This document shows positions 24-9,208 of a stretch of DNA of 9,208 bases, piece by piece. The notes beneath the pieces were generated by a model, which saw nothing but the letters and a program-made list of their open reading frames with translations, had not been told where the DNA came from and ran no database searches. Position 1 is the stretch's first letter. Each line of letters begins with the position of its first letter. The position numbers were made by a program, and so were the translations under genes. Origin of the DNA: Eubacterium sp. (GTDB lineage: Bacteria; Bacillota_A; Clostridia; Lachnospirales; Lachnospiraceae); NCBI GenBank assembly GCA_017475785.1, contig JAFVEX010000144.1, positions 1-9,208 of the forward strand. The letters are read 5' to 3'.

Positions 24-926
24 ATGTTAAAAGGAATCTACACCGCAATGGTAACTCCCTTTAAGGAAGACGGCAGCATGGACCGCGAGAAGGTCGAGTC
101 CCTGATCGAGGCAATGATCGCAGACGGTATCTCCGGCGTTGTCATCGGCGGCTCTACAGGTGAATTCTTCCTGATGAGCTACGAAGAGCGCAAGGCACAG
201 GTCAAGGCGATCTGTGAAATCGTCAACAAGCGGATCACAGTCGTGGCGAACGCGGGCTGCCTGAACACAGAGGACACTGTGGACATGGCGAAGTACTGCA
301 CGGAGGCCGGCGCGGATATCCTGCTGCTTGTCCCGTCCTGGTATGAGAAGCTCACGAACGATGAAATCGTCGCGCACTATAAGGCAGTCGGCGACGCTGT
401 CGACACTCCGATCATGCTTTACAACATTCCGGGCTCCAGCAGCAATGACATCACACCGGAAGTCGCGGCGCAGCTCGCAGAGGTCTGCAACGCGACCTGC
501 ATGAAGGACAGCACAGGCGACGTACACCGCCAGTATCAGATTACCTGGGCGACCGGCGGCAAGGTGCAGCCTGTCTGCGGAGCGGACTCCATTCTGATCA
601 ACGCGCTCGCGTACGGTACGCAGGCGACGGTTCTCGGCGTTACAAACGCGATCTCAAAGGAGTGTGTCGCGCTGTGCAAATACATGGAGAAAAATGACCT
701 CGACGCGGCAAGAAAGCTCTGGGATAAGCTGCTCCCGGTTCTTGAGTTCGCGGAGAACAACGAGTATATCGCAGTCACAAAGCGGATGTGCAAGCTGGTC
801 GGCCGTGACCAGGGCGATCCGAGACGTCCGGTTCTCCCGCTGAATGAAGAAAAGACAGCAAAGCTGACAGAGCTGATGGCCGGCCTCGCGGAAGTAAAGG
901 ATCTCGTTGACGCGGCTTTCAATTAA
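24..926 (+). CDS. DapA/NanA-family (class I aldolase fold) lyase, not a canonical dihydrodipicolinate synthase
   Basis: A 300-residue cytoplasmic TIM-barrel enzyme of the dihydrodipicolinate synthase / N-acetylneuraminate lyase family, full length for the family. These enzymes form a Schiff base between a lysine and a 2-keto acid and catalyse aldol cleavage, condensation, dehydration or deamination. Visible motifs are GGSTGEFF at residues 42-49 (the carboxylate-binding GxTGE loop), the catalytic tyrosine Y133 in YNIP, and the Schiff-base lysine K161 in MKDSTGD. GSTGE rather than GTTGE resembles sialate lyase and sugar-acid lyases. The segment after YNIP is GSSSND, where true DapA has SRTG with an arginine that binds aspartate semialdehyde, so lysine biosynthesis is unlikely. 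AGGAGAG at 12-18 gives good spacing to the ATG. The stop lies 24 bases before etfB, so the two are probably co-transcribed, pointing to a catabolic aldolase or lyase. Family assignment is firm; the substrate is unknown. Confidence 0.93.
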   Translation: MLKGIYTAMVTPFKEDGSMDREKVESLIEAMIADGISGVVIGGSTGEFFLMSYEERKAQVKAICEIVNKRITVVANAGCLNTEDTVDMAKYCTEAGADILLLVPSWYEKLTNDEIVAHYKAVGDAVDTPIMLYNIPGSSSNDITPEVAAQLAEVCNATCMKDSTGDVHRQYQITWATGGKVQPVCGADSILINALAYGTQATVLGVTNAISKECVALCKYMEKNDLDAARKLWDKLLPVLEFAENNEYIAVTKRMCKLVGRDQGDPRRPVLPLNEEKTAKLTELMAGLAEVKDLVDAAFN

Positions 927-950
927 GCACAGGTGTTGAAGGAGGAATGT

Positions 951-1739
951 ATGAATATTGCTGTTTGTCTGAAACAGACACTTGACCCGGAAATCCCGCT
1001 CAAGGATTTCAAGATTGATCCGGACACCAAAAAGGCCGTGCAGGGAAATGCGAAGCTGGTGCTGGATTCCTTCGCGGAGAACGCGCTGGAAGTAGCGATC
1101 CAGCTCAAGGAGCAGTACGGCGCGAAGGTGACGGTCATCACCGTCGGCGCGGATTCAACCGTCGATGTACTCCGCAGAGGCATGGCGCTGACCGCGGACG
1201 AGGCGATCCGCGTGTGGGACGAGAGCTATGAGGATCTCGATTCCGCGGCGCTCGCGTCCGTCCTTGGGGAGGCACTGAAAAACGCAGGTGATTTTGACCT
1301 GATTCTCACAGGGCGTCAGGCGGCAGATGTTGAGCGCGGAAGCACAGGCCCGATGCTCGGTGAGTATCTGGGACGTCCGGCAGTTACATTTGTCACAAAG
1401 GTAAACGCTGTGGAAGACGGTTCCGTCACAGTTGAGCGCGAGATCGAAGGCGCGGTAGAGGTCGTGCAGAGCAAACTGCCCGCAGTTCTGTCCGTTACCA
1501 GTCACGAGAGCAACATCCCGCGTCTGCCGAAAGTTCGGGATACCATGAAGGCGTCCCGCAAGCCGATCGGCGATGTCGGAGCAGATGCGCTTCCGGGCGC
1601 CTCCATTGAGGCGGGGATCGACACAACAGACGTGTTTGTCCCGGTCATGGAGAGCAACTGTGAGTACATCGAAGGCGATGACGGGGCAGAGAAGGCTGTC
1701 AACCTGGCTGCAAAGCTGCGCGCGTTAAAACTGATTTAA
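951..1739 (+). CDS. etfB: Electron transfer flavoprotein, beta subunit
   Basis: A 262-residue EtfB, a normal family length. With EtfA it forms a soluble heterodimer that carries electrons between a flavin dehydrogenase (often an acyl-CoA dehydrogenase) and another acceptor; some anaerobe ETFs bifurcate electrons to ferredoxin. The EtfB signature is clear at residues 161-206: an acidic/basic strand VEREIEG, then LPAVLSVTSHESNIPRLP and MKASRKPIGD. A nucleotide-binding loop with GRQAAD lies at 121-126. Whether the beta site holds AMP or a second FAD, which marks bifurcation, cannot be settled by eye. An upstream in-frame TTG at 933 is possible, but ATG 951 is preferred because AAGGAGG (939-945) lies five bases before it and the protein then begins MNIAVCLKQT, as EtfB proteins do. 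etfA follows after 13 bases. No dehydrogenase partner is present in the window. Confidence 0.96.
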   Translation: MNIAVCLKQTLDPEIPLKDFKIDPDTKKAVQGNAKLVLDSFAENALEVAIQLKEQYGAKVTVITVGADSTVDVLRRGMALTADEAIRVWDESYEDLDSAALASVLGEALKNAGDFDLILTGRQAADVERGSTGPMLGEYLGRPAVTFVTKVNAVEDGSVTVEREIEGAVEVVQSKLPAVLSVTSHESNIPRLPKVRDTMKASRKPIGDVGADALPGASIEAGIDTTDVFVPVMESNCEYIEGDDGAEKAVNLAAKLRALKLI

Positions 1740-1752
1740 GGAGGAACCCATT

Positions 1753-2730
1753 ATGAGTAAAGTTCTTGTATTTGCGTCTGTTCAGGGCGGCGCGCTGCCG
1801 AAGGGCTCCCGCGAAATCCTGAACGCAGGAAAAGAGCTGGCTGCCGCAATCGGCGCGGAAGTCGAGGCAGTCGTGGTCGGCGCGGACGCGGCGGCAGCTG
1901 CTGATGAGCTGGCTGCAAAGGGTGCTTCCAGAGTTTACTGCGCGTCTGACGCCTCCGTCGCGAACCTGGTGCCGGATCTGTATCTTAGCTGTATTGAAAA
2001 CGCGGTGAAGCAGAGCGAAGCATGCGCGGTTTTGTTTGACGCGGACAGCACAGGCCGTGACCTCGGACCGAAGCTGGCGTACCGCCTCGGCGCTTCCCTG
2101 ATTACAGAGGCGACGACCTTCCAGGCAGACGGCGGCAAGGTGATCTGGAACCGTCCGTGTTACGGCGGAAACGCGCTTTCAACTGTCATCGCGAAGAGCG
2201 ATGTACAGGTCGTCACGATCCGCCCGCACAGCTATGACGCGGAACTCGCGGACGCGGCTGCAGGCGAAGTCGTCAGCCTTCCGCTCACGATGGATGCTGC
2301 GGATGCGGCGACACGCGTGCTCGAAGTCATTCAGGAAGCAAACAAGGGGCTCGGCGTAGAAGACGCGTCGATCGTAATTTCCGGCGGACGCGGCATGGGT
2401 TCCGCAGAGGCGTTCGCAGGCCTGCAGGAGCTCGCTGATCTCCTCGGCGGAGCTGTCGGAGCATCCCGCGCGGCGACAGACGCGGGCTGGGCTTCCGTAT
2501 CCCAGCAGGTCGGGCAGACCGGCAAAATCATCGCGCCGGATCTCTATATCGCAGTCGGCATTTCTGGCGCGAGCCAGCATCTGACCGGCATCACAAACGC
2601 GAAGAACGTCGTCGCGATCAACAAAGACGAAAACGCGCCGATTTTCCAGCGCGCGACACTCGGCATCGTCGCCGACTACAAGAGCGTTCTGCCTCAGCTG
2701 ATTGAGGAATGTAAAAAGCTGATCGGCTGA
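1753..2730 (+). CDS. etfA: Electron transfer flavoprotein, alpha subunit
   Basis: A 325-residue EtfA, the usual length, with no added N-terminal ferredoxin domain. The N-terminal Rossmann-like domain (about residues 1-195) packs on EtfB, and the C-terminal domain binds FAD. The FAD-binding signature is intact: GGRGMGS at 211-217, SRAATDAGW at 238-246, [16 protein letters not shown] at 252-267, and the family block [16 protein letters not shown] at 269-284 followed by [12 protein letters not shown]. The ribosome site AAGGAGG at 1738-1744 overlaps the etfB stop codon and lies eight bases before the ATG, so expression of the two subunits is likely coupled. Its role is to pass electrons from an unseen flavoprotein dehydrogenase in this catabolic operon. 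The assignment is secure; the dehydrogenase partner and any bifurcating ability are inferred at best. Confidence 0.97.
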
Positions 2731-2748
2731 GTAAGACACATAAGTTTC

Positions 2749-2760
2749 AAAGGAAGGAGG
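2749..2760 (+). promoter_or_regulatory. Double ribosome binding site that decides the start of the racemase-like gene
   Basis: The purine tract aaaggaaggagg holds two Shine-Dalgarno cores. The stronger AAGGAGG (2754-2760) ends only one base before ATG 2762, too close for normal initiation, but seven bases before the in-frame TTG at 2768. The weaker AAGGA (2750-2754) is seven bases before ATG 2762. Either start gives nearly the same protein (250 or 248 residues), so start choice would affect efficiency more than function. Confidence 0.55.
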
Positions 2761-2761
2761 T

Positions 2762-3514
2762 ATGTGTTTGGAACAAAAGAAAAAAGCAGCTGTTGGCGGT
2801 TATCCTTTCTTCGGACAGGATCTGGGCGCAGTCATGCTGCCGGTTCAGTCTCCGGCTCTGCCGGGGAATGTCGGAAATGCCGCATCCTTTTCTTACCCGG
2901 TGCGGTACCGGACGCTGAAGGGGTTCAACCCGGACTGGTGGAATGATGAAGAAGGTCCCAGCGAGGAGCGTTATCAGACGATTCTCGGGGCGGCCAAGGA
3001 ACTGGAAGAAGAAGGGGTCAAGGCGGTCACATTTGGCTGTGGCTTCACGGGGGTCTACCAGAACAGACTTGCAGAGGAACTGAATATCCCTGTGATGGGT
3101 TCACCGCTGGTGATGGCGCCATTGATTCAGCGTCTGATCGGAAAGAACAAAAAGATCGGAATCTTCACAATTAACGCTGACGAATTGAGACCGGAGCTCT
3201 TTGAAGCAGTTGGGATCAAAGAGGAAGAGATCAATTACGTAGTTGGGGAGATGCAGGATGCTCCGGAGTTTCGCGCCGTGTACTGCGGCGGCGGAAAGAA
3301 AGAGCTGGACATCGAGGCGTTTCGTGAGGAGACGGTCGCGAACGCGGTCCGGATCAAGGAAGAAAATCCGGATCTGGGGGCGTTCCTGATCGAATTCCGG
3401 ACAATCGGCGCGTTCACGGCAGACATTGCCGCGGCAACAGGACTTCCCGTCTTCGACGGGACGGCACTCGCAAACTTTGTTCACCAGGCGACAAACCCGA
3501 AGCCATTCGTGTGA
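2762..3514 (+). CDS. Asp/Glu racemase-superfamily protein with only one of the two catalytic cysteines
   Basis: A 250-residue soluble protein of the aspartate/glutamate/hydantoin racemase superfamily, whose members include racemases, maleate isomerase and arylmalonate decarboxylase. The family layout is recognisable: a start resembling GG..FG..LGAVML, then PGNVGNAASFSYPVRY (34-49), the first cysteine motif FGCGFTG with C93, IGIFTINADELRP (132-144), and the closing ATGLPVFDGTALANFVH (225-241). Racemases of this group usually have a second cysteine in an ECTNM(P/A)P-like motif; here the aligned segment is EFRTIGAF (211-218), so F212 replaces it. A two-base racemase mechanism is therefore doubtful, and a one-cysteine isomerase, lyase or decarboxylase, or a binding role, is possible. 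It lies 31 bases after etfA. ATG 2762 is taken as the start, but TTG 2768 has better ribosome-site spacing. The superfamily is confident; the reaction is unknown. Confidence 0.85.
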   Translation: MCLEQKKKAAVGGYPFFGQDLGAVMLPVQSPALPGNVGNAASFSYPVRYRTLKGFNPDWWNDEEGPSEERYQTILGAAKELEEEGVKAVTFGCGFTGVYQNRLAEELNIPVMGSPLVMAPLIQRLIGKNKKIGIFTINADELRPELFEAVGIKEEEINYVVGEMQDAPEFRAVYCGGGKKELDIEAFREETVANAVRIKEENPDLGAFLIEFRTIGAFTADIAAATGLPVFDGTALANFVHQATNPKPFV

Positions 3515-3530
3515 GGGTGGGAACGCCGCA

Positions 3531-3558
3531 GGATCATCCGGCGATAAGCCGGGTGTCC
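3531..3558 (+). other. Intercistronic hairpin upstream of the binding-protein gene
   Basis: The inner stem CCGGC (3538-3542) pairs with GCCGG (3548-3552) around loop GATAA. Outer GGA (3531-3533) can pair with TCC (3556-3558) across an internal loop. No T-run follows directly, so it is not a standard intrinsic terminator. It may be an mRNA processing or stability element, or mark a boundary before a separate promoter for the transporter. I see no convincing -35/-10 pair in the 88-base gap. Confidence 0.4.
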
Positions 3559-3602
3559 GAAAACCAGGTAACAGCAAGTAGAAAAGAGAGAAGGTTTTTA
3601 TT

Positions 3603-4865
3603 ATGAAGAAAACAAAATCTGTTGTTGCTATGCTGATGGCACTTACCATGACGGCAGCACTTGCCGGCTGCGGATCAGGATCAGGCGGATCCTCTGCCGC
3701 AAGCTCAGGCGGAGCTGATGCCTCTGCCGCATCCAGCGCGGCTGCTTCCAGCGCAGAAGATACCAGCGCGGCTGCATCCAGTACCTCCGAGAGCGCTGCT
3801 CCGGCTGCAAGCGGCGAGACAGCTACCTACACACTGGCGGTCGTTGGACCGATGACCGGTGACTCAGCAAACAACGGAACACAGTTCCAGCGCGCCGCAG
3901 AAATGGCGATCGAAGAGATCAACGCAAAAGCGGACGGCTATCAGCTGGAGTTCGTAGTCGGTGATGACCAGGCACAGCCAAACCAGGGCCTGATCGTAGC
4001 TGAGAAATTCGCCAGCGATGACAGCATCCTCGGTATTGTCGGACACAACAACTCCGGTGTTACCATGGCTTGCCTTGAGACCTACAGCCAGTACGGAATG
4101 CCGGTCGTATCCCCGACCTGTACCGCTACAGACCTGACAGAAGCAGGCTATGACAACTTCTTCCGCGTCATCATGTCCGATAAAGACTACAAGGCACAGT
4201 ATGCCCAGATCGGTGTTGAGAAGTTTGGCGCTACGAAGCCGGCAATCTTCTGGGAGAACACAGACTACGGCAAGGGCGGCCGCGACGTCGTCGCAGGATG
4301 GCTCGAGGAGAACGGTATTGATCTCGTTGAGGATCTTTCCTACAATCCGTCCACAGACCGTGATTTCTCCGCGCAGATCACAAAGATGAAAGAGTCCGGC
4401 GTTGACCTTGTCTACGTCCTGTCCGGTGAGTACACAGCAGGCGCGCTGTTCACAAAGCAGGCTAAGACACTTGGTCTGGAAGCAACCCTGTTCGGCGCAG
4501 GTGACTGCTACAACCCGAACTTCCTTGAGATCTCTGAAGACGCAGGCGAAGGCTTCCACTGCCTGACCGCATTCGACGCGACGAACCCGGCTGAAAACGT
4601 ACAGGAGTTCGTAGAAGCTTATCACGAGAAATTCGATGAGATGCCTGGTGAGTGGGCCGCGCACGCATATGACACAGTTCAGGCTTACGCAAAGGCAATT
4701 GAGGCAGGCGCTACAGACAGAGCTTCCTGCATCGAGAAACTTCGTGACGTAACATTCGAAGGTGTTTCCGGACACATTGAGTTTGACGAGAAGGGCGACG
4801 TTGTCGGCAAAGAGACATTCCTGACCATTATCGAAGATGGAAAATTCGTAGCAGACGAGAGCTGA
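3603..4865 (+). CDS. livJ: ABC transporter substrate-binding lipoprotein, LivJ/LivK family
   Basis: A 420-residue extracellular binding protein for a branched-chain-amino-acid-type (HAAT) ABC transporter. It begins with a lipoprotein signal peptide: basic MKKTK, a hydrophobic core, and the lipobox LAGC with the lipidated cysteine at residue 23. Residues 24-74 are a low-complexity Ser/Ala/Gly linker tethering the domain to the membrane. The type I periplasmic-binding fold begins with YTLAVVGPMTGDSANNG (76-92) and contains GHNNSGVTMA (147-156), which resembles the ligand-contacting strand-loop of LivJ, and DYGKGGRD (221-228). The family also binds amides, urea, aromatic amino acids and organic acids, so the ligand is open. 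An AAGG site lies eight bases before the ATG. The gene stands between two GC-rich hairpins, an arrangement that often permits more binding protein than permease. Family is certain; use of the symbol for a leucine-type system is tentative. Confidence 0.93.
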   Translation: MKKTKSVVAMLMALTMTAALAGCGSGSGGSSAASSGGADASAASSAAASSAEDTSAAASSTSESAAPAASGETATYTLAVVGPMTGDSANNGTQFQRAAEMAIEEINAKADGYQLEFVVGDDQAQPNQGLIVAEKFASDDSILGIVGHNNSGVTMACLETYSQYGMPVVSPTCTATDLTEAGYDNFFRVIMSDKDYKAQYAQIGVEKFGATKPAIFWENTDYGKGGRDVVAGWLEENGIDLVEDLSYNPSTDRDFSAQITKMKESGVDLVYVLSGEYTAGALFTKQAKTLGLEATLFGAGDCYNPNFLEISEDAGEGFHCLTAFDATNPAENVQEFVEAYHEKFDEMPGEWAAHAYDTVQAYAKAIEAGATDRASCIEKLRDVTFEGVSGHIEFDEKGDVVGKETFLTIIEDGKFVADES

Positions 4866-4884
4866 TGTGCTCACATGACATTTG

Positions 4885-4914
4885 CGGGAGGGGCAGTCCT
4901 GCTGCTCCCTCCCG
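4885..4914 (+). other. Strong GC-rich intercistronic hairpin between the binding protein and permease genes
   Basis: Bases 4885-4896 pair with 4902-4914 in a 12-bp stem with one bulged T (4906) and loop TCCTG. No T-run follows, so full termination is unlikely. It fits a 3' mRNA-stability element or partial attenuator that raises the binding protein relative to the membrane and ATPase subunits. The function is inferred; the pairing is directly visible. Confidence 0.7.
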
Positions 4915-4938
4915 GCGGTGGGATGTTAGGAGGTTGCA

Positions 4939-5808
4939 ATGTTATTACAGTTTATTATCAATGGTCTGAGTATCGGCAGCGTGTACGCGCTGATCGCGCT
5001 TGGATACAACATGATCTACGGCATACTAAACCTGCTGAACTTTGCCCACGGTGATCTGTATACGATCGGTGTATTCATCGTGTTCTCGCTGGTAAGCGGC
5101 GGTATGAACGCGTTCCTGGCAATTCTGATTGCAGCAGTCGTCGTAGGCGTACTTAATTTGATTATTGAACGTGTCGCATACCGGCCGGTACGTTTTTCGG
5201 GTCGTGTAACCCCGACTATTTCCGCGGTTGGCGTCGCTTATATCTGCCGTAACTTCACGCAGCAGGTATGGGGACCGTCCACACGCGCGTTTACCCTGAT
5301 TAAGCTCGGACAGTTCCGTGTCGGCAATTTTGTCATTGGCCAGCTGCAGATCTTCATTCTCGCGATCGCGGTTGCCCTGATGATTGTCATCTCGGTGCTG
5401 CTGAAGCGCACAAAAGTAGGACAGGCAATTAATTCCATTTCACAGAGCATTCCGACAGCGTCTCTTATGGGAATTCCGGCAAACCGCATCATCTCCCTGG
5501 TTTACGCGGCAGGCGCGATCCTTGGTCTGGTCGGCGGTGTGCTGTACGCATCTTATTACGAGAACGTATACTTCGGTATGGGATTCATGAACGGTACCAT
5601 GAAGGCATGGATGGCAAGTATCATCGGCGGTATCGGAAGTCTGAAGGGCGGCGTCATCGGCGCGCTGATTCTCGGACTGGCCGAGAACCTGATCGCGGGG
5701 TACATCTCAACAGAATGGCGCGACGCGGTTCTGTGGGCGTTCTTTATGATCTTCATCCTGATCTTCCCGAACGGACTGTTTGGATCTCAGATTTCCGAGA
5801 AGCTATAG
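4939..5808 (+). CDS. livH: Branched-chain amino acid-type ABC transporter permease, LivH family
   Basis: A 289-residue, highly hydrophobic integral membrane permease, normal length for LivH. It pairs with LivM to form the transmembrane pathway for substrate delivered by the lipoprotein encoded just upstream. Recognisable features are an N-terminal helix pair, ALIALGYNMIYGILNLLNFAHGDLYTIG (17-44, with the family's NFAHG motif at 34-38), a cytoplasmic segment TKVGQAINSISQSIPTASLMGIP (158-180) matching the conserved region that ends in LMGI, and the ATPase-coupling GGIGSLKGGVIGA (230-242). It ends with a PNGLFG tail (278-282). The ribosome site AGGAGG at 4928-4933 lies five bases before ATG. livM starts 13 bases after its stop. 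No motif is missing. The family is secure; substrate identity is not encoded in an obvious way. Confidence 0.94.
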   Translation: MLLQFIINGLSIGSVYALIALGYNMIYGILNLLNFAHGDLYTIGVFIVFSLVSGGMNAFLAILIAAVVVGVLNLIIERVAYRPVRFSGRVTPTISAVGVAYICRNFTQQVWGPSTRAFTLIKLGQFRVGNFVIGQLQIFILAIAVALMIVISVLLKRTKVGQAINSISQSIPTASLMGIPANRIISLVYAAGAILGLVGGVLYASYYENVYFGMGFMNGTMKAWMASIIGGIGSLKGGVIGALILGLAENLIAGYISTEWRDAVLWAFFMIFILIFPNGLFGSQISEKL

Positions 5809-5821
5809 GGAGGTATGTGAC

Positions 5822-6829
5822 ATGAATAATTCAACAATAAAACGATTTGGCAAACAGAATCTTGTGCCGCTGATCGTCGTCATCCTTGCCATCCTGCTTC
5901 CGGTCGTGGTGACAAACGCTTATCTGATGCGCGTGTTTATCATGATGCTCTGCTACATGATCATCGCAATGTCGATCAACCTGATCGTAGGGTACTGCGG
6001 ACAGCTGGACTTCGGACGCTCCGCGTTTGTAGGACTTGGCGCGTACTTCTCGGCGATCGTCAGCATGCGTCTGGGCGTTCCGTTTATCATCTCATTTATC
6101 GGCGCGGGCGTATTCGCCGGCCTGGTGGGCGCGGCGCTCGGTATGGTCTGCCGCAAATCCACTTTTGACTATCTGACGCTGATGACCATGGGCTTCAATG
6201 AGATCTGCCGCCTGATTTTCATCAACTGCGACAAGTTGACGGGCGGCGCGCTTGGAATCAAAAAGGTTCCGAAGCCGAATCTGGGCTTTATCGTTCTGGA
6301 TACGCCCAGAAAGTACTATTATTTCGTCTTGATATTCGTTGTTCTGACATTTGTCATTATCAGAAACATCATCGGTTCCAAGTACGGAAGAGCGTTTATG
6401 GCGATCAGAGATGACGCGACCGCGACGCTTTACATGGGAATTGATGTTGCCGGTTACAAGGTGTTTAACTTCGCCGTGGCCTCTGTATTCTCCGGTATTG
6501 CCGGCGCGCTGATGGCACATTATACAGGATATGTTTCTCCTGCGTCCTACACGCTGGATGAGTCCATCCTGATGCTGCAGATGCCGATCCTCGGCGGTCT
6601 CGGAAGCCTTCCGGGCTCCATCGTCGGAACGATCATCCTGCAGGTGCTTCCTGAGATCTCAAGAACCTTCTATCAGTACCGTCTGATGTTCATCGGTGTC
6701 CTGATGGTCGTTCTGATGGGACTGGCGCCGAACGGACTGCTCGGCAAAGGTGGTATTGTCGATAAGATCCGCTTTGCGGTTATGAAGAAACAGAGCAGGG
6801 ACGAAGGTTCGAAGGCAGTAGAGAAATAA
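5822..6829 (+). CDS. livM: Branched-chain amino acid-type ABC transporter permease, LivM family
   Basis: A 335-residue integral membrane permease, the second half of the HAAT transporter channel. Family landmarks are INLIVGYCGQLDFGRSAFVGLGAY (52-75), the periplasmic TGGALGI (140-146), the cytoplasmic coupling region GRAFMAIRDDATATLYMGID (189-208), GGLGSLPGSIVG (258-269) and the C-terminal LAPNGLLG (301-308). The reading frame is open back to an ATG at 5780 inside livH. ATG 5822 is chosen because GGGAGG (5808-5813) lies eight bases before it and the upstream residues would overlap livH with no family support. The basic, polar C-terminal tail is cytoplasmic. livG follows after 17 bases. The C-terminal end is intact and nothing looks degraded. 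Confidence 0.94.
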   Translation: MNNSTIKRFGKQNLVPLIVVILAILLPVVVTNAYLMRVFIMMLCYMIIAMSINLIVGYCGQLDFGRSAFVGLGAYFSAIVSMRLGVPFIISFIGAGVFAGLVGAALGMVCRKSTFDYLTLMTMGFNEICRLIFINCDKLTGGALGIKKVPKPNLGFIVLDTPRKYYYFVLIFVVLTFVIIRNIIGSKYGRAFMAIRDDATATLYMGIDVAGYKVFNFAVASVFSGIAGALMAHYTGYVSPASYTLDESILMLQMPILGGLGSLPGSIVGTIILQVLPEISRTFYQYRLMFIGVLMVVLMGLAPNGLLGKGGIVDKIRFAVMKKQSRDEGSKAVEK

Positions 6830-6846
6830 GAAGGAGGTGTGACAAA

Positions 6847-7611
6847 GTGTCAATCATTCTGCAGACGAAAGGTCTCACAAAGAAATTTGGCGGCGTCACA
6901 GCGGTCTCCAATATTGACCTGACGGTCGAATCTGACCAGGTCTACTGTATTATCGGACCGAACGGCGCGGGAAAAACAACATTATTCAATCTGGTATCCG
7001 GTATTGAACCGCCCACGAGCGGGGAAATCTTCTTTCAGGATCAGAAAATAACCAGGCAGCCGGTCTACAAAATTGCCCGTCTGGGCATCGGCCGGACCTT
7101 CCAGAATATTCGCCTGTTCGGACAGCTGTCCGTGCTGGACAATATTCTGATCGGAATGCACTGCCAGATGGATGACAGCTTCCTCGGAAGCGTCGTATAC
7201 AACAAGAAACACCGCCAGGTAGAGCTGGACGGAAGAAAAGAAGCACAGGAGCTGCTGGATTTCGTTGGGATGGGAGATCTCGCGAACGAGAATTCCGCGA
7301 GCCTGCCGTACGGCGCGCAGCGCCGCCTTGAGATCGTGCGCGCGCTGGCCAGCAACCCGAAGCTGCTGATGCTCGATGAGCCGGCGGCCGGCATGAACGG
7401 CAAGGAGAAGAACGACCTCGTCGAGCTGATCCGCCGGATCCGCAAGATGGGTCCGACGATTCTGTTCATCGAGCACAATATGCCGCTCGTCATGGGTATT
7501 TCCGACAGAATCATGGTTCTGAACTTCGGCGAATGTATCGCAGAAGGTGTGCCGGAAGAAATCCAGAACAATCCACAGGTCATCGAAGCATACCTGGGCA
7601 AAGACAATTAA
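6847..7611 (+). CDS. livG: Branched-chain amino acid-type ABC transporter ATPase, LivG family
   Basis: A 254-residue cytoplasmic ATPase, one of the two nucleotide-binding subunits that power the LivHM permease. All catalytic motifs are present: Walker A GPNGAGKTT (37-45), Q-loop Q86 in GRTFQNIRLF, the ABC signature in the LivG form LPYGAQRRLEI (153-163), Walker B LLMLDE (173-178) with its catalytic glutamate, and the switch histidine H210 in FIEHNM. The GRTFQN segment and the tail VIEAYLG are typical of LivG rather than LivF. The start is GTG at 6847, with AAGGAGG (6831-6837) nine bases before it. No other good in-frame start has a site at that spacing. The gene ends 14 bases before livF. Family and role are secure. 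Confidence 0.95.
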   Translation: MSIILQTKGLTKKFGGVTAVSNIDLTVESDQVYCIIGPNGAGKTTLFNLVSGIEPPTSGEIFFQDQKITRQPVYKIARLGIGRTFQNIRLFGQLSVLDNILIGMHCQMDDSFLGSVVYNKKHRQVELDGRKEAQELLDFVGMGDLANENSASLPYGAQRRLEIVRALASNPKLLMLDEPAAGMNGKEKNDLVELIRRIRKMGPTILFIEHNMPLVMGISDRIMVLNFGECIAEGVPEEIQNNPQVIEAYLGKDN

Positions 7612-7625
7612 GGGGGTGCGGACTG

Positions 7626-8333
7626 ATGATGCTTAGTATCAAAAATCTTAGTGTAGCATATGGCATGATCCGCGCGCTGGACAATGTCAACATGGAAGTA
7701 GAAGAGGGGCAGCTGACGACACTGATCGGTTCCAACGGTGCCGGTAAGTCGACACTTCTGAAAACAATCTCCGGCCTGCTGAAACCACTCTCCGGCGAAA
7801 TTGATTTTATGGGGACGAAAATCAGCGGCTGGGAGCCGGATAAAGTCATCAAGCAGGGAATCTCGCACTGTCCTGAAGGGCGCAAGCTGTTTCCGAATCA
7901 GACAGTTATGGAGAACCTGCGCATCGGTGCCTATGTCCGGAAGGACAAGAAGGAAATTGATGACGACATCGAAAAGTATCTGGACATGTTCCCGCGCCTG
8001 CGGGAGCGCAGCAACCAGAAGGCGGGTCTCCTGTCCGGCGGCGAGCAGCAGATGGTTGCGATCGTCCGCGCGATGATGAGCCGCCCGAAGCTGGTCATGC
8101 TCGACGAGCCGTCCATGGGTCTCGCGCCGCTGCTGGTTCAGGACGTCTTTAACCTGATCAGAGAAATCAAGAAGTCAGGCGTCACGATCCTGCTGATCGA
8201 GCAGAACGCGCACCAGGCGCTCCAGGTGGCAGACTATGCTTACATCCTGGAATCCGGCAACATTGTGGCGCAGGATAAGGCGTCTGTGCTGCTGGAAAGC
8301 CCGGATCTGGTTGAGCGGTATCTGGGTGCGTAA
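7626..8333 (+). CDS. livF: Branched-chain amino acid-type ABC transporter ATPase, LivF family
   Basis: A 235-residue cytoplasmic ATPase that pairs with LivG to drive the LivHM permease. Motifs are Walker A GSNGAGKS (35-42), the LivF-type Q-loop region CPEGRKLFPNQTV (82-94), signature LSGGEQQ (136-142), Walker B LVMLDE (156-161), and the switch position Q193 in LIEQNA. Glutamine instead of histidine at the last site is the family norm for LivF. The frame is open back to 7533 inside livG, but the real start is ATG 7626 (or ATG 7629 right after it), with a G-rich site AAGGGGG at 7610-7616 nine bases before 7626. This is the last gene of the operon. No intrinsic terminator follows the stop; instead the sequence passes directly into the structured, gene-free region. 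Confidence 0.95.
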   Translation: MMLSIKNLSVAYGMIRALDNVNMEVEEGQLTTLIGSNGAGKSTLLKTISGLLKPLSGEIDFMGTKISGWEPDKVIKQGISHCPEGRKLFPNQTVMENLRIGAYVRKDKKEIDDDIEKYLDMFPRLRERSNQKAGLLSGGEQQMVAIVRAMMSRPKLVMLDEPSMGLAPLLVQDVFNLIREIKKSGVTILLIEQNAHQALQVADYAYILESGNIVAQDKASVLLESPDLVERYLGA

Positions 8334-8341
8334 AATATAAG
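8311..8341 (+). promoter_or_regulatory. Possible weak promoter for the structured RNA, inside the livF 3' end
   Basis: TTGAGC (8311-8316) resembles a -35 box, and TATAAG (8336-8341) or AATATA (8334-8339) resembles a -10 box, with 19- or 17-base spacing. A start near 8345-8348 would put the first helix strand (8345-8351) at or near the RNA 5' end. The match is imperfect and partly within coding sequence, so read-through from livF is an equal alternative. Confidence 0.25.
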
Positions 8342-8344
8342 TTT

Positions 8345-8555
8345 GTCGGGATCAGCAGGGTGACGAATTCAGTTTCCTCGTCTGCCCGCGAAAAGACCAT
8401 CGAACCGCAGACTAACCGTCTGTAGGCGTGCGGCCAATTCGTCATAAGCGTAACTCATTGCCCGCACGCTGACAGACGCTAAGCCTCCGTTTCTCCGATC
8501 TTTTCAGCAAGGGCATCCTCGGAAGCTGAAATTCGTCTAAACATGCCGTCCCGAC
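8345..8555 (+). other. RNA domain I: multi-branch domain at the 5' end of the candidate RNA
   Basis: The closing stem GTCGGGA (8345-8351) pairs with TCCCGAC (8549-8555). Inside it are three separate arms. Arm one is a perfect 9-bp stem 8361-8369/8436-8444, capped by a small hairpin CAGAC/GTCTG (8408-8412/8418-8422). Arm two is AGCGT/ACGCT (8447-8451/8466-8470). Arm three is AGACG/CGTCT (8474-8478/8534-8538) containing a perfect 7-bp stem 8502-8508/8525-8531. Together these make a four-way junction. All pairings were found by eye and are not energy-scored. Confidence 0.5.
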
Positions 8556-8605
8556 TGCACCCGTCGTAGGGCTGCAGGTGATTCGGTTTATCATTGTGCG
8601 CAGCC
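8555..8605 (+). other. Inter-domain hairpins with two mutually exclusive forms
   Basis: Two overlapping hairpins compete here. Form A is CTGCA-CCC (8555-8562) with GGG-C-TGCAG (8569-8577), loop GTCGTA and one bulged C. Form B is GGCTGC (8570-8575) with GCAGCC (8600-8605), holding an inner wobble-containing stem GGTGAT/ATCATT. Base 8555 also belongs to the domain I closing stem, so form B fits that stem better. Confidence 0.4.
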
Positions 8606-8615
8606 AGAAGCCAAA

Positions 8616-8804
8616 GTCATCAGGCGAAAACGAGTGCTCGGGTTCCTAAAAGTAAGAACTATGTGCCTGAGATCCGATCACTGGCACACCCTAACGTATG
8701 GTCGCGAGTATTTCTATTTATCATAAAGGGCAGTCAGATGCCCGGGGCATTAAGCAAGGGAAACCAACCTGTTCAGCAGGTAATTCAGATTTAAGCCCGA
8801 TGAC
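8616..8804 (+). other. RNA domain II: long-range stem enclosing three hairpins
   Basis: GTCATCAGGC (8616-8625) pairs with GCCCGATGAC (8795-8804), nine of ten positions, with a single A-C mismatch, across 169 bases. It encloses TGTGCC/GGCACA (8662-8667/8683-8688), GGGCA/TGCCC (8728-8732/8739-8743) and ACCTG/CAGGT (8767-8771/8777-8781). The joining strands are purine-rich, for example AAGCAAGGGAAACCAA at 8752-8767. Confidence 0.5.
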
Positions 8805-8805
8805 C

Positions 8806-8909
8806 TGAGCCTGGGCCGCTCAAAATGAGAAACTAAATGATCGGCGACCCTACAGACCGCCGCAGTCGGGATCGCTCTGCAGTGGTGTCAGATAGCATAC
8901 ATGCACGAG
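8806..8909 (+). other. RNA domain III: chain of three short hairpins
   Basis: TGAGC/GCTCA (8806-8810/8818-8822) has a seven-base loop. GCGA-CCC (8844-8850) pairs with GGG-A-TCGC (8868-8875) with one bulged A and an inner GAC/GTC. CTC-TGCA (8875-8881) pairs with TGCA-C-GAG (8902-8909) with one bulged C. The two single-base bulges in otherwise matched stems are typical of structured RNA. The A-rich strand 8822-8840 separates the first two. Confidence 0.45.
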
Positions 8910-8910
8910 G

Positions 8911-9208
8911 CGGATCAGTTTCCTCTGACGGTCTTCGGCGATAAAAAGACTTACAGGACGAGATGATTAGAGTCGGTTATTGCGCGAGGTGGTTGTTCCT
9001 CTCTATTCAAGTCCGGAATAATCCGGACTTGCGCCGGACTGCGAGCCAGCTTTGCTGGCAGTTTCCTTTATCGCAGTCCTGGCATCCTCCGGAGGATTGT
9101 CTCAGATGGTTGCCAACCATCTGAGACAGATAAACACCTCGCGCAATTAGCGGGTCTTATCATCTGGCCTGGAAGCTTTTTGCCGGATCGTCAGAGGAAA
9201 CTGATCCG
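8911..9208 (+). repeat. 298-base imperfect palindrome (RNA domain IV) closed by a perfect 20-base inverted repeat
   Basis: Bases 8911-8930 are the exact reverse complement of 9189-9208, the last bases of the window. The pairing continues inward with small bulges and wobbles (TACAGGAC/GGCCTGGA region, AGATGAT 8961-8967 with ATCATCT 9159-9165) to another perfect 13-bp block, 8979-8991/9135-9147. The apical 143 bases hold four arms: 9008-9016/9023-9031 (9 bp), 9033-9044/9071-9083 (12 bp with one bulge) capped by GCCAGC/GCTGGC, the palindrome 9084-9097, and 9098-9111/9115-9128 (14 bp perfect). It could be the 3' domain of a large RNA, a MITE-like element, or another hairpin-forming element. The right flank is missing, so target duplication cannot be judged. 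Confidence 0.85.

Follow-up and report, generated by a model that had tools for sequence, protein, structure and literature searches.

The DNA that directly follows livF in the 9,208-nt stretch analyzed here (the window), at positions 8334–9208, probably belongs to a multicopy family of MITE/ERIC-type palindromic repeats that lie between genes, as a large composite member starting at the livF stop codon. It extends to the window end at 9208, and the right boundary of the element lies beyond that point. Because a recognizable module of it recurs between genes of related bacteria, the stretch looks like a mobile-type DNA repeat and not like the giant RNA gene, akin to GOLLD, ROOL and OLE, that a first-pass annotation had proposed. 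The family was found only in three related genomes (G001, G003 and G004) and in the window. While the general kind of element is known, this family, its frequent docking at stop codons and its modular growth appear to be new. The parts of the window copy are listed in Table 1.

Table 1. Parts of the window element (positions are those of the window).
Feature	Position	Strand	Evidence
livF stop codon TAA, then degenerate left end AATATAAGTTTGTCGGG	8331..8350	+	Compared with the family end TAAATCGGGGTTTGTCGGG
Alpha hairpin module	8362..8527	+	Homologues in G001, G003 and G004; covariation
Beta-like segment, left copy	8549..8605	-	8570–8605 matches L088 (86% over 37 nt, E 6.4e-4); remainder by eye
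Spacer between the two beta-like segments	8603..8815		No family match found
Beta-like segment, right copy	8816..8873	+	Pairs with the left copy; beta of L115 similar by eye
Epsilon, 298-nt nested hairpin up to the window end	8911..9208		Folding z −18.8 (200 shuffles)

The strong folding described in the first-pass annotation was confirmed. The minimum free energy of 8334–9208 was −397.7 kcal/mol, whereas 20 shuffles averaged −280.0 (z −13.5). The opposite strand folded slightly better (−410.5, z −15.2, 20 shuffles), so folding does not single out the + strand, which had been implied as the structured one. The multi-domain layout held up in that large domains are present and fold separately, but we see three rather than the four that had been described: 8362–8530 (z −6.0, 200 shuffles), 8543–8910 (z −4.2, 100 shuffles) and 8911–9208 (Table 1). 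The claimed perfect stems of 20, 14 and 13 bp are present at 8911–8930/9189–9208, 9098–9111/9115–9128 and 8979–8991/9135–9147, and further perfect stems of at least 9 bp measure 11, 10, 10, 9, 9, 9 and 9 bp, some of them mutually incompatible. The outer parts of the beta-like segments form 17-nt arms (8549–8565 and 8855–8871) that are 82% complementary.

As the annotation had stated, this ornate stretch has no evident protein; it also lacks an Rfam match. No Rfam family reached its gathering score, those of GOLLD, ROOL and OLE included, and the sole match at E ≤ 10 was sucA, whose 16.3 bits fall short of its cut-off of 40. A group II intron reading was dropped, as Rfam gives it no support. Two tested open reading frames (66 aa, 8594–8794, + strand; 87 aa, 8182–8445, − strand) had no Pfam match, and the whole stretch had no match at E ≤ 1e-5 in phage and plasmid records.

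The homologous unit proved to be a hairpin of ~130–190 nt with several copies per genome, which argues against one giant RNA class. When 98 relatives were searched with window DNA, matches appeared only in G001 (three partial matches), G003 and G004, and the copies found in this way were 73–80% identical to alpha by blastn. A covariance model of alpha built from 11 sequences (R1) scored the window copy at 148 bits, alpha itself being among its training sequences. In the three genomes R1 gave 37 rows; subtracting 10 same-place rows on the opposite strand leaves 27 distinct places, 11 in G001, 4 in G003 and 12 in G004. Across 299 genomes drawn from the family, R1 matched two, G001 and G003. A wider model from 23 sequences (R2) matched 3 of the 40 nearest genomes and none of the other 37, and 1 of 391 genomes of the class, which was G001 itself, with none among the 390 others. 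Because the 299- and 391-genome searches used stricter filters and scored few candidates per genome, weak matches in them could be missed.

Alpha copies are intergenic, lie in either orientation, have a GC content of 39–55% and differ in their neighbors from copy to copy. In two G001 loci (L086 and L087) alpha occurs in both orientations at the contig start, and G001 copies at different loci are 94–95% alike over 453–482 bp (L115/L117; L086/L087). An alpha hairpin is found in each of the three genomes at one orthologous intergenic place (L118, L120), flanked by genes that we take to be gltA and rlmH. There, the G001 and G004 loci (L118 and L120) align in the same direction with alpha on opposite strands. 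Epsilon found only 16–28 nt matches in the three genomes (E 0.035–0.85).

Many copies of the family are framed by inverted end motifs, which again does not fit a single giant RNA gene. Ten of 15 diverged alpha copies start ~30–50 nt downstream of an end akin to TAAATCGGGGTTTGTCG (end motif AAATCGGGGTTTGTCG); one (L108) starts after a second type of end, and four (L103, L106, L118 and L120) show neither. With up to two mismatches, the first end occurs at 84 sites (52 in G001, 10 in G003 and 22 in G004), and a reversed control gave 0. A 16-nt version with up to one mismatch matched in 39 of 395 relatives, where the reversed control also gave scattered single or double matches; more than two matches occurred only in G001 (47), G004 (14) and G003 (3). 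In the regions examined, inverted pairs of the motif frame 14 palindromic elements of 121–479 bp, all of which fold as long hairpins or hairpin arrays, and the ends of the elements form GC-rich stems. The basic form of the family is a 123-bp imperfect palindrome. The second end, near AAGGGGGCTTTAA, bounds other elements, such as L092 1094–1695, with alpha oppositely oriented at its two ends. The left end of the window copy is degenerate: its alignment score of 8 was reached by 8 of 5000 shuffles but also at 47 of 18368 window positions. The assignment to the family end is suggestive; its position at a stop codon, which other copies share, also speaks for it.

The window genes have close relatives in Eubacterium sp. 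RGIG4369 (L001, genome G001), whose proteins are 91% identical to the window LivK and 93% identical to the window LivF. In G001, livF runs through TGA-TT-ATG straight into a short-chain dehydrogenase gene, without the element; in the window, livF ends in TAA, followed by the element. Since the right flank of the window is missing, this difference may reflect rearrangement rather than insertion at livF. A further open reading frame follows the dehydrogenase gene in G001. Upstream in the window (24–8333), a dihydrodipicolinate-synthase-family gene, two ETF subunits and one open reading frame precede a full branched-chain-type ABC transporter. This frame, with no Pfam match at E ≤ 1e-5, reads to us like an Asp/Glu racemase, and the set is possibly a catabolic operon.

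Placement at stop codons extends to other copies. The loci examined held 59 end-motif sites, of which 5 outside G001, G003 and G004 were dropped, leaving 54 that are part of the 84. At 17 of these 54 an open frame of at least 90 codons has its stop in the first triplet, and at 2 more such a stop lies one triplet earlier; frames were called mechanically and the count is uncontrolled. Other copies lie upstream of genes. One G001 element (L117 1406–1960) sits between a 12/12 promoter match and the following gene's ribosome-binding site, and a G003 element (L125 1440–2020) is likewise placed between a promoter, matched by eye, and a ribosome-binding site. This arrangement in two species suggests that the hairpins may form part of a transcribed 5′ leader. 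At this place, which follows a gene that is presumably uvrA, the G001 and G003 elements have a common left part and a different right part.

The family shares several features with MITEs. Its 14 paired elements have terminal inverted repeats in the ~4–30 bp range typical of MITEs and, at 121–479 bp, stay below the usual limit of 500 bp, and the family is dispersed, multicopy, intergenic and non-coding. Several observations stand against the repeat reading: the 14 elements show no target duplication, a trait of younger MITE copies, beyond AT letters inside their ends; the family is without the AT-richness typical of MITEs; the searches turned up no autonomous partner; and the window copy (at least 875 nt) exceeds the usual MITE size, has a degenerate left end and a right end outside the window, and contains epsilon, which is without a relative. 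No autonomous insertion sequence was seen between paired ends, the draft assemblies searched being broken at repeats of this kind. Two end pairs set far apart (L177 and L178) were considered as such an element and rejected because the enclosed genes look housekeeping; we take them to be an isocitrate-dehydrogenase-like gene in the former and hisF, hisH and ribF-like genes in the latter. Neither a 123-bp element searched against plasmids nor a 454-bp element searched against phages gave a match at E ≤ 1e-5. Two short patterns found 17 and 22 places in viral contigs, and blastn of the 17-place set gave only 16–19 nt matches around the pattern itself. No known transposon or RNA family was clearly matched, yet in its behavior the family resembles MITE-type repeats.

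Known palindromic repeats offer partial parallels. ERIC (RU-1) is a 127-bp enterobacterial palindromic repeat (PMC2759123), described as an imperfect palindrome, intergenic and multicopy, found at times at gene 3′ ends, where it is reported to change mRNA decay (PMC10969869). The basic form here is likewise an intergenic, multicopy imperfect palindrome of similar size; however, the likeness is one of size and shape only, and our family occurs in other bacteria, builds composites of at least 875 nt and has ends that start at stop codons. Prokaryotic MITEs such as Coxiella QMITE2 have inverted ends, no transposase gene and stable stem-loops, and QMITE2 lies mostly in 3′ untranslated regions (PMC10969869). 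Our family shares the first three features and differs in that no direct repeats were seen and no related insertion sequence was found, besides the differences in base composition and size given above. BIMEs are mosaics of small hairpin modules (PMC2817692). With modules of 120–300 nt compared with 20–40, our family is a mosaic on a larger scale. BOX elements, too, are mosaics of small hairpin modules, and the same likeness and difference apply. GOLLD, ROOL and OLE are large, ornately folded RNAs (PMC12286853) that the stretch resembles in size and folding, but it looks like a dispersed modular repeat and not one conserved unit. The letters of the end motif are absent from the literature searched, in which no description of palindromic or MITE-type repeats in Eubacterium or Lachnospiraceae was found either; subscription papers lie mostly outside its coverage.

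Covariation among homologues, which the first-pass annotation had proposed as a check, was seen for alpha. In a MAFFT alignment of 22 distinct, mutually related copies with 28 pairs (A3), 94.0% of cells pair, and 22 of the 28 pairs are changed on both sides (99 cells), values that none of 500 shuffles reached; 68 of the 500 attained the number of further pair types. When the partner was slid by 1–3 columns, pairing fell to 30–44%, a control that favors the tested structure because this was predicted from A3 itself. Compensatory change of this kind can come from either selection on the folded strand or arm-to-arm correction within palindromes. The strong covariation, and the retention of alpha hairpins by three genomes at one orthologous place, are compatible with a selected function too, and a functional structured RNA is the reading they would favor. 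In that reading alpha is a hairpin domain of an RNA, for example one that a protein binds or RNase III cuts, and the 875-nt stretch is a non-coding RNA of several domains or a 3′ leader. The conserved unpaired letters of alpha, the excess of G-U over A-C or C-A cells in its alignment (19 vs 11, a weak lean to the window strand) and the placement of the L117 element downstream of a promoter match point the same way. However, the two strands fold equally well, alpha differs in orientation at the orthologous place in G001 and G004 and in neighbors among its copies, the element is absent after livF in G001, and 8200–9208 contains no promoter-like match. We regard a functional RNA as unlikely, although it is the least improbable of the alternatives.

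Three other explanations bear on how the hairpins arose or moved. The exchange of hairpin cassettes, in which end motifs dock at stop codons or gene borders while their contents are swapped and flipped between species, seems to us improbable. Under such exchange, alpha, beta, other hairpins or GCATGC-type arrays would be the contents placed between ends at orthologous sites, and folded single-stranded hairpins would be recognized by some recombinase in an integron-like process at gene ends. Were content swapping between fixed ends true, it would offer a natural system for how hairpin DNA moves and stays paired. Bidirectional terminators or mRNA-end hairpins, repeated through convergence or local copying and not by transposition, could account for the GC-rich stems of the ends and for the 17 of 54 sites, in that uncontrolled count, at stop codons. 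Near-identical copies at unrelated loci, copies within a putative 5′ leader and the near-chance number of terminator-like matches (2 in the window region vs 0.9 expected; 0 in L117 1380–2000) make this highly improbable. We give slightly less credence still to a movement of single-stranded hairpins by Y1 (HUH) transposases, the way RAYTs have been proposed to move REP/BIME elements. All three genomes have Y1_Tnp matches (6, 5 and 3 rows), and conserved mismatches in the hairpins and the absence of target duplication would fit; but the six Y1 loci examined showed neither the end motif nor alpha, with one weak beta-like match in L221, and two Y1 proteins from these genomes look to us like ordinary IS200/IS605 TnpA.

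If, as we favor, the stretch belongs to a MITE/ERIC-type repeat family, the elements of that family would be spread in trans by some transposase or other recombinase, would be inserted or retained chiefly at the 3′ ends of genes, and would enlarge as modules nest and are swapped. If co-transcribed with the liv genes, the window copy would close the liv message with a highly stable hairpin; judging from its place and stability, this could influence mRNA decay, or read-through to the gene downstream. This reading removes one candidate from the list of giant bacterial RNAs and substitutes a repeat family with clear compensatory evolution and frequent docking at stop codons. The case is also a warning: nested palindromic repeats that lie at a sequence end may be mistaken for an ornate RNA.

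Some elements depart from the alpha/beta plan. In G003, near 1500 of L137, a lone 10-bp hairpin containing the end motif was seen by eye at the stop codon of a gene that is presumably icd; it is a remnant or a minimal form, and near the equivalent place G001 and G004 carry longer elements. Elsewhere in G003 (L131 1501–2190, L134 and L195 714–1134), the same end motif accompanies GCATGC-rich imperfect tandem repeats that replace the alpha and beta hairpins. The same ends in G004 (L186 446–840) hold ~64-bp tandem repeats rich in GGGGCGGGTGAAAAGCTGAAATTCG, and an array of ~86 bp imperfect repeats of the GCATCCGCATCC type (L090 991–1376) adjoins a G003 alpha copy.
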